In this document: one piece after another, positions 62,052 to 63,137 of the stretch
Layout of the letters: each line of letters opens with the position of its first letter
Position numbering within the stretch: the first letter of the stretch is position 1
Assembly: GCA_026418455.1 (NCBI GenBank)
Contig: JAOABH010000004.1
Coordinates: 124,001-188,000, forward strand
Length of the DNA: 64,000 nt
Reading direction: 5' to 3'
Source of the DNA: Hydrogenothermaceae bacterium
GTDB lineage: Bacteria > Aquificota > Aquificia > Aquificales > Hydrogenothermaceae
Translations under genes and position numbers: made by a program
The notes under the pieces: generated by a model
What the model was told of the DNA's origin: nothing
Seen by the model: only the letters and a program-made list of their open reading frames with translations
Database searches by the model: none

Positions 62052-62969
62052 TCAGCTGTAGCTTTCGTTTCTCTTTTTTGATATTAGCCAGTAAACTATT
62101 CCAAGTATTAGAATAACAACACCAAAACTTAATATCTCCAGAGCTTTTTTTTCATCAGCAGGAGAGAGAGAAGCTATAAGTAGTTTCCTTATCATGGCTG
62201 CAAGGGCTATGCCTATGAATGCGTAAAGGGCAAATCCGCCTCCTCTAAAATGTTTTATCTCTTCATTCATAAGCTCTCCTACAGCCCAAAGAATCAGTAG
62301 GCTACCTAAGGTTGCTACTATGGCTTCTTCAAAAGGTACTATATTGAAAAGTAGTTTATAAATATCATAGAAGAAAAGACCCACAACAAAAATTGCAACA
62401 ATCACTAAAGCAGACAGTATAGATAGATCTATAAAATCTGCAAACTTCCTAGCAAAGCTGAATAATTTTTTTTCTAACGGAGACATAACAGCATATTTTG
62501 AAAGCTCCTCTTCTCTATAAGCCATTGTAAGCATATCCAAATTCATATCAAGTAGTTTCCCTACGGAAGCTACATACATATTTCTCTCTTTTCTGTCCTC
62601 TATTTCCATATCTATTTTTTCAATGATAAATCTTCTAACGAAGTTAAAGCTGGCGTTTACATAGTGAGTAGGGAGTCCTATATTGACATGAACCTGACCA
62701 ATCCTATTTAGCTTTAGAAAATACTCAATTCCATAGCTTCCACTAAATAAGTCTAAAAACCATCCTTTTACTTTTTCTCTATGTCTTTTTATTATCTCTT
62801 CATTTTTTAAATATCTTTGGGCTTCTGGAAATTTAAATATAAATTTGTAAAATCTATCTATAAATTCTGTTTGGTATTTTTCCATAATTGGTTTTAATTT
62901 AACTATTCTATCAATGTCAGATTCATCAAACTCATAATCTTTTTTCAGTTGTTCAATGTTTTCTATCAT
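62052..62969 (-). CDS. Globin-coupled (protoglobin-like) sensor fused to PsiE-like membrane domain
   Basis: 305 aa. Residues 1-160 resemble the globin-coupled sensor domain: F-Y-x-x-I, R-H-R-E-K-V-K-G-W, and R-I-G-Q-V-H-V-N-I-G-L-P-T-H-Y-V-N-A with the likely proximal heme His. Residues 175-300 hold four hydrophobic segments like PsiE (F-A-D-F-I-D-L-S, V-P-F-E-E-A-I-V-A-T, M-N-E-E-I-K-H-F-R-G-G, A-L-A-A-M-I-R-K). The heme part would sit in the cytoplasm and signal oxygen, NO or CO to the membrane part. It stands alone, with GAGGAT before its ATG. Confidence 0.75.
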   Translation of the reverse strand: MIENIEQLKKDYEFDESDIDRIVKLKPIMEKYQTEFIDRFYKFIFKFPEAQRYLKNEEIIKRHREKVKGWFLDLFSGSYGIEYFLKLNRIGQVHVNIGLPTHYVNASFNFVRRFIIEKIDMEIEDRKERNMYVASVGKLLDMNLDMLTMAYREEELSKYAVMSPLEKKLFSFARKFADFIDLSILSALVIVAIFVVGLFFYDIYKLLFNIVPFEEAIVATLGSLLILWAVGELMNEEIKHFRGGGFALYAFIGIALAAMIRKLLIASLSPADEKKALEILSFGVVILILGIVYWLISKKRNESYS

Positions 62970-63026: not shown

Positions 63027-63137
63027 ATGTGTAAAGAATATAAATTTAAAGAGATTGAATGTCTTAAATGTAGCAGTAAAAGAGATCTAAAAGAAGACCC
63101 TAACATAGAAGGGATATATTTTTGTGAGGAATGTTGA
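63027..63137 (+). CDS. 36-aa zinc-ribbon-like peptide
   Basis: ATG at 63027 with GGAAAG 4 nt before it. The product has C-L-K-C near residue 13 and C-E-E-C at the very end, spaced like a zinc ribbon, with charged residues between. The TGA stop comes directly after the last Cys, and the same frame stays open for 13 more hydrophilic codons (E-E-R-E-R-T-E-I-N-E-K-L-G) up to a TAA at 63079+98 (63177). A longer 50-residue ancestor, or recoding at TGA, is possible. Confidence 0.5.
   Translation: MCKEYKFKEIECLKCSSKRDLKEDPNIEGIYFCEEC

Follow-up and report, generated by a model that had tools for sequence, protein, structure and literature searches.

A globin-coupled sensor joined to a PsiE membrane domain in a Hydrogenothermaceae bacterium and its relatives

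PsiE has been named and a regulator of it is known, but its function is not. A gene that places a PsiE domain behind a globin raises the question of whether the one could be the output of the other. Such a gene, here called GCS-PsiE, lies in a 64,000-nucleotide stretch of DNA from a heat-loving Hydrogenothermaceae bacterium (the window, to which plain coordinates refer). The open reading frame read from the sequence spans 62052..62969 on the minus strand, starts with ATG and encodes 305 residues; all features of the gene given below are on that strand. An earlier note on this DNA had proposed an N-terminal globin sensor and a C-terminal PsiE-like domain, and Pfam searches recovered both. Protoglobin (PF11563) matched residues 4-155 (62505..62960) with 101.6 bits against a cut-off of 25 (E 5.6e-29), and PsiE (PF06146) matched residues 183-300 (62070..62423) with 76.7 bits against a cut-off of 23.9 (E 2.2e-21). 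Between them lies a linker, residues 156-182 (62424..62504), that is almost entirely helical in AF2 models. NCBIfam equivalogs of the E. coli type of PsiE scored far below their cut-offs (23.2 bits against 138, 19.1 against 222 and 16.7 against 207), and we therefore regard the C-terminal half as a PsiE-family domain and not as an E. coli-type PsiE. With an N-terminal Protoglobin domain, an F8 histidine (H94) and a C-terminal domain of another kind in the same frame, the protein is a globin-coupled sensor, and a globin of the GsGCS subfamily followed by PsiE in a single frame gives it the GsGCS-type architecture. Its genome (G000) contains no other protoglobin match and three further PsiE matches.

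The nearest PDB match to the protein by sequence is 2w31, the globin domain of GsGCS from Geobacter sulfurreducens (E 4.3e-32). An AF2 model of the whole protein had a mean pLDDT of 79.6 and a pTM of 0.51, with globin blocks mostly at 86-96 and linker blocks at 63-75. The earlier note had staked the globin reading on a predicted structure, and the globin half of the model indeed overlays 2w31 with a Foldseek TM of 0.92 by target length and an rmsd of 1.3 A; it also overlays the HemAT and AfGcHK domains. The histidine of the motif G-Q-V-H-V, around which that note had expected the heme pocket, is H94 (62688..62690) and aligns with the proximal F8 His. For the distal side, Y41 (62847..62849) aligns with Tyr43 (B10) of E. 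coli DosC, and H63 (62781..62783) falls on the site of DosC Leu65, which a reference title in PMC5549716 places on the heme distal side of that protein (YddV). We propose H63 as the distal His, and from its aligned position it would contact the heme. Its E7 register is fixed by HisE11 of GsGCS: extracts of PMC4476040 describe a bis-histidyl GsGCS globin with His66 at E11 as sixth heme ligand, a site taken in the window protein by V67 (62769..62771). The narrow-sense trait of the GsGCS subfamily, bis-His ligation with HisE11, is thus absent from the window protein, where E11 is Val67 and E7 is His63. In protoglobin the ligand path is independent of E7, according to PMC3680402. The window protein accordingly belongs with the GsGCS-type sensors, PsiE forming its membrane half, and represents a variant with the distal His at E7.

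Both domains recur in one frame well beyond the window. Among 136 Aquificota genomes, 98 had a protoglobin match and 124 a PsiE match, and at least 74 frames in at least 73 genomes carry both, where frames of equal length in the same genome among 85 PsiE and 123 protoglobin rows were counted as fused. Outside this count stand G034 and G097, seemingly fused and incomplete, and G008, where the PsiE part is broken. A contig scan for three peptide patterns, all globin-derived, turned up 268 relatives once hits had been confirmed with just the GsGCS globin, and of these we kept the best 80: 43 Geobacterales-type loci (L022-L064), 33 of Campylobacterota type, and L065, L087, L097, L099 (Nitrospinae). 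A PsiE profile matched the selected frame in all of these best 80 of 268, a figure biased towards the GCS-PsiE family because the scan patterns derive from it. That the fusion is an accident of sequencing or gene calling, as the broken frame of G008 or the 161-residue selected frame of L068 (holding just part of the globin) might suggest, is virtually inconceivable, since independent genomes refute it, with single open frames in at least 73 of the 136 from Aquificota and also outside that phylum. The both-domain frames in these Aquificota genomes and in all of the best 80 of 268 loci show that the fusion has been maintained; it is real, widespread and conserved. As a separate observation, G008 (contig 1, L112) has, beside the fusion that is frame-broken in its PsiE part, four other PsiE matches, one of them from the same broken gene.

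The earlier note's expectation of an unusual architecture did not hold, however. The closest relatives of GsGCS that we found (64% identity and below) share the globin-PsiE layout, which is neither rare nor new, and the GsGCS globin had already been crystallised (2w31; reportedly Pesce 2009). Descriptions of GsGCS itself give it a C-terminal membrane region to which no function is assigned; judging from its relatives, full-length G. sulfurreducens GsGCS probably carries a PsiE half there. In a Campylobacterota sample PsiE matched in 32 of 249 genomes, with nine frames of 301-331 residues (the one looked at, that of G139, being L067 and L136), and in a sample of Geobacter's phylum in 92 of 247 genomes, where 15 of 20 long PsiE frames carry a globin and five do not. 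As candidates for other PsiE fusions in the three phyla sampled, L187, L188, L189, L204 and L205 were rejected, since they look like lone PsiE with a long upstream open frame. Lone PsiE proteins are common in the genome searches of Aquificota and Geobacter's phylum, and in a PsiE-domain tree nearly all fused PsiE domains cluster in one group. A plasmid search matched 39 records, none with one place covering 80% of the query; among the 30 plasmid matches listed, coverage was at most 56% and lay in the globin half. A PHROGs search gave no match.

Is the globin of these proteins built to hold heme? We aligned 119 fusions, comprising 17 of the 18 rows of Aquificota alignment A2 (L012 omitted), 76 of the 80 globin-pattern loci (four were left out for a frame below 290 residues or an X), the 15 globin-bearing long-frame loci from Geobacter's phylum and 11 further Aquificota. 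The F8 His is present in 116 of the 119 and Tyr B10 in 111. A distal His stands at E7, as in the window protein, in 62 and at E11, as in GsGCS, in 44; none has both and 13 have neither, so that 106 of 119 carry one or the other. Such conservation of the F8 His, Tyr B10 and a distal His is what selection for heme binding would predict. The two distal positions follow the branches of the family: HisE11 occurs in 42 of 43 Geobacterales-type loci and HisE7 in 32 of 33 Campylobacterota-type loci, the remaining one being a gap (both counts from the best 80 of 268 relatives), and HisE7 in 17 of the 18 Aquificota proteins of A2. On a quick tree of the 119 fusions, in which long branches were flagged, the three E7/E11 states need 5 changes against a shuffled mean of 46.4. 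That the distal His differs by one helical turn between two branches of a single family makes a clean case of heme-sensor retuning. An apparent coupling of HisE11 to Glu in place of Lys at position 262 was considered and rejected, as the pattern follows clades and L202, read by eye, combines HisE11 with Lys. We also noted a second histidine soon after H94, H102 in the globin motif G-L-P-T-H-Y, that is kept in at least 95% of the 119 fusions.

A few globins depart from this pattern. The F8 column holds Tyr in L011 and Phe in L169 and L170, with the globin otherwise retained; the latter two belong to family f3 and, being on long branches, are less surely aligned, and Pfam still detects the globin of L169. 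Since these three keep a globin without the usual pocket, heme may not be required in all fusions. Together with L179 and L180, where most of the pocket is gone, they could be taken to mean that the globin serves for dimerisation or protein contact and senses no gas through heme. Sensor globins without heme do exist, such as RsbR of Bacillus subtilis in extracts of PMC4476040, and these five loci have likewise lost the F8 His or the pocket. As an account of the family this is nevertheless very unlikely, as 116 of 119 fusions keep the F8 His and 106 a distal His, the window protein among them. The window protein differs from RsbR in retaining its pocket, and family f2, described below, from RsbR in holding seven PsiE genes without any globin.

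What the PsiE half contributes is harder to read from known proteins. It has four hydrophobic helices by Pfam, hydropathy and an AF2 model of residues 150-305 (59 sequences), which is helical with a pLDDT of 86.9; hydropathy peaks in the window protein lie at residues 184-202, 219-226 (with breaks), 254-260 and 283-290. E232 (62274..62276) and R261 (62187..62189) are invariant in all 119 fusions, and across 59 PsiE sequences, six of them lone PsiE, R261 is the only column without variation. A Foldseek search of the PsiE-half model against the PDB gave nothing at E <= 0.001. VIA-align gave Z up to 9.9 with unrelated helical proteins (LMP1, rhodopsins, BAR domains, Orai and SdhD), which we take as no guide to function because these Z values lie in the tool's uninformative range for helical bundles. 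When the sequence of the PsiE half was searched against the PDB, nothing credible emerged: one search was empty and the other gave a single match at E 0.17. To our knowledge no activity has been assigned to PsiE. Extracts of the literature report that E. coli psiE is controlled by PhoB and CRP (PMC4415409) and that a PsiE-like protein is a member of a stress-tolerance locus (PMC8290217, PMC7010813); in these extracts no biochemical activity for PsiE is given.

PsiE could then be a mere anchor, with the globin as the working part, a heme protein kept at the membrane to transfer electrons or to clear NO or O2. This would suit the lack of a known PsiE effector activity, the bis-histidyl state of the GsGCS globin (extracts of PMC4476040) and the redox roles proposed for other membrane-bound hexacoordinate globins (PMC3520999 and PMC4686822). 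Against it, an anchor would have no need of the invariant E232 and R261, and lone PsiE proteins are common. The more telling evidence comes from family f2 of the Aquificota, where the globin has decayed or disappeared and PsiE has stayed. Pocket residues are present in L013, L014 and L168. In L011 the F8 His is replaced by Tyr, and in L015 the B-C region and the E7 His are missing and the F8 His is aligned. L179 and L180 have a shrunken globin, matched by our own globin profile with E 4e-13 and 2e-14 and lacking the F-helix His motif by eye; that of L179 was not reported by Pfam. Seven further loci (L178 and L181-L186) have PsiE and no globin.

In the PsiE-domain tree all nine of these forms, globin-less or shrunken, fall with the fused L168 and L015 into a single clade inside f2 (support 98/92), and the seven globin-less ones group among themselves (90/90). 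Of six lone PsiE from elsewhere, five lie outside the fused group, and the placement of the last, L177, next to f2 on a long branch is weakly supported (84/80). The locus agrees with the tree. Among the nine globin-less or shrunken f2 loci folE adjoins in eight and a HesB/IscA-like gene in all nine, matching the fused L168; the other f2 loci in that search (L164-L167 and L174) gave no match to a folE or HesB/IscA-like neighbour. Of the six f2 loci in this search that have a globin frame of annotated length L168 alone shares the folE locus, and loss of the globin in place is therefore demonstrated against one fused relative. The globin-less PsiE genes gave dN/dS values of about 0.11 for L181-L182, 0.08 for L182-L185 and 0.11 for L181-L185, and of about 0.05 for L181-L184 and L182-L184, two pairs with dS above 1; the remaining pairs were saturated. 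PsiE without the globin thus evolves under purifying selection. Chiefly because the f2 series loses the globin and yet keeps PsiE under this selection, at a shared locus where it has no globin to anchor, we conclude that the effector is probably PsiE, with the globin as an input that can be dispensed with, and hold the role of mere anchor to be unlikely.

Gene neighbourhoods were of less help in naming the process that PsiE acts on. The window gene lies next to SCO1/SenC and cysteinyl-tRNA synthetase genes, which we do not take as a functional pointer because the same pair recurs in a locus of the same genus (L155). Between GCS-PsiE and the SCO1-like gene a 36-codon frame (63027-63137, plus strand) could encode a tiny Cys-rich, zinc-ribbon-like peptide, as judged by eye. 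Among the 43 Geobacterales-type loci from the best 80 of 268 relatives, some of them cut by contig ends, 24 have the hydrogenase-maturation gene hypD, and in all 23 that could be measured hypD lies on the same strand and abuts GCS-PsiE from upstream. For one such locus, L034, HypD, HypF and a CobW/HypB-type fragment are backed by Pfam and NCBIfam. A HAD-type hydrolase gene (L034:4893-5486) often follows GCS-PsiE in hyp-linked loci, and its family occurs in 27 Geobacterales-type loci. We found no neighbour common to the Campylobacterota loci or to the Aquificota loci. The neighbourhood was accordingly set aside as a functional pointer, as no neighbour is common to different phyla and the hypD link is confined to Geobacterales-type loci.

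Lone PsiE genes have neighbours of their own. One in G000 (contig 6, L176:2314-3434), like those of L207 and L213, immediately precedes a gene for a PhoB-like response regulator that is read from the same strand; the arrangement is rare (G000 and two of 20 loci checked, in G001 and G010), and the nearest NCBIfam model of these regulators is PhoB, with scores below cut-off. Another in G000 (contig 3, L175:2342-3336) follows an Hsp20 gene, as in L222, an equally rare pairing (G000 and one of 20 loci checked, in G108) that recalls the stress-tolerance locus, where extracts of PMC7010813 place small heat-shock proteins together with PsiE.

Taken together our results favour a globin-coupled sensor of the GsGCS kind whose output is PsiE, the heme state of the globin switching PsiE in the membrane, and we consider this reading reasonably probable. 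The globin would lie on the cytoplasmic side and bind heme by way of H94, while H63 and Y41 would occupy the distal side. A change of heme state, by binding of O2, CO or NO or by iron redox, would shift the last globin helix, and the helical linker would carry the shift to PsiE, whose four helices would lie in the inner membrane, and so switch its activity. PsiE would be the effector in this scheme and the globin its optional input. Heme binding, the identity of the ligand, dimer formation, membrane orientation and signalling from helix to membrane are presumed here. That PsiE answers a gas or redox signal, as the earlier note had suggested, gains support from the relatives that kept PsiE after losing the sensor, the signalling step itself being presumed. 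We may speculate further that PsiE protects or tunes oxygen-sensitive metal-cofactor metabolism and that GCS-PsiE is its O2- or redox-gated form, with the distal His changing sites (E7 or E11) so that the heme is retuned to each niche and with the switch removed in some thermophiles to leave PsiE always on. This builds on the Geobacterales gene at the end of a hydrogenase-maturation cluster and on the HesB-like iron-sulfur assembly gene beside the locus in part of f2, and we regard it as quite unlikely.

Compared with known systems, GsGCS is closest to the window protein, its globin being the best PDB match in both sequence and fold. E. coli DosC, AfGcHK and HemAT belong to the same globin class and share its proximal His and B10 Tyr, whereas their outputs are GGDEF, kinase or chemotaxis and that of the window protein is PsiE. 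E. coli PsiE and the PsiE-like protein of the stress-tolerance locus carry the same Pfam domain, PF06146; these are lone membrane proteins, whereas the window PsiE is fused and below the NCBIfam equivalog cut-offs. Our literature search, in which subscription papers were thinly covered, returned no paper joining a globin-coupled sensor to PsiE, and the fusion may well be listed in domain databases. New here are the alternation of the distal His between E7 and E11, the loss of the globin in f2 with PsiE kept and the hypD link in Geobacterales-type loci. The hope that the fusion would give a handle on PsiE is partly borne out in that it places PsiE under a sensor, although it does not yet reveal the job of PsiE. 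A heme-switched PsiE, controllable by a defined ligand, would make PsiE activity testable in membranes or cells. Relatives with an intact pocket, a damaged pocket or no globin at all form a natural experiment that separates sensor from effector, and the main interest of the family lies in this separation, by which PsiE becomes testable.
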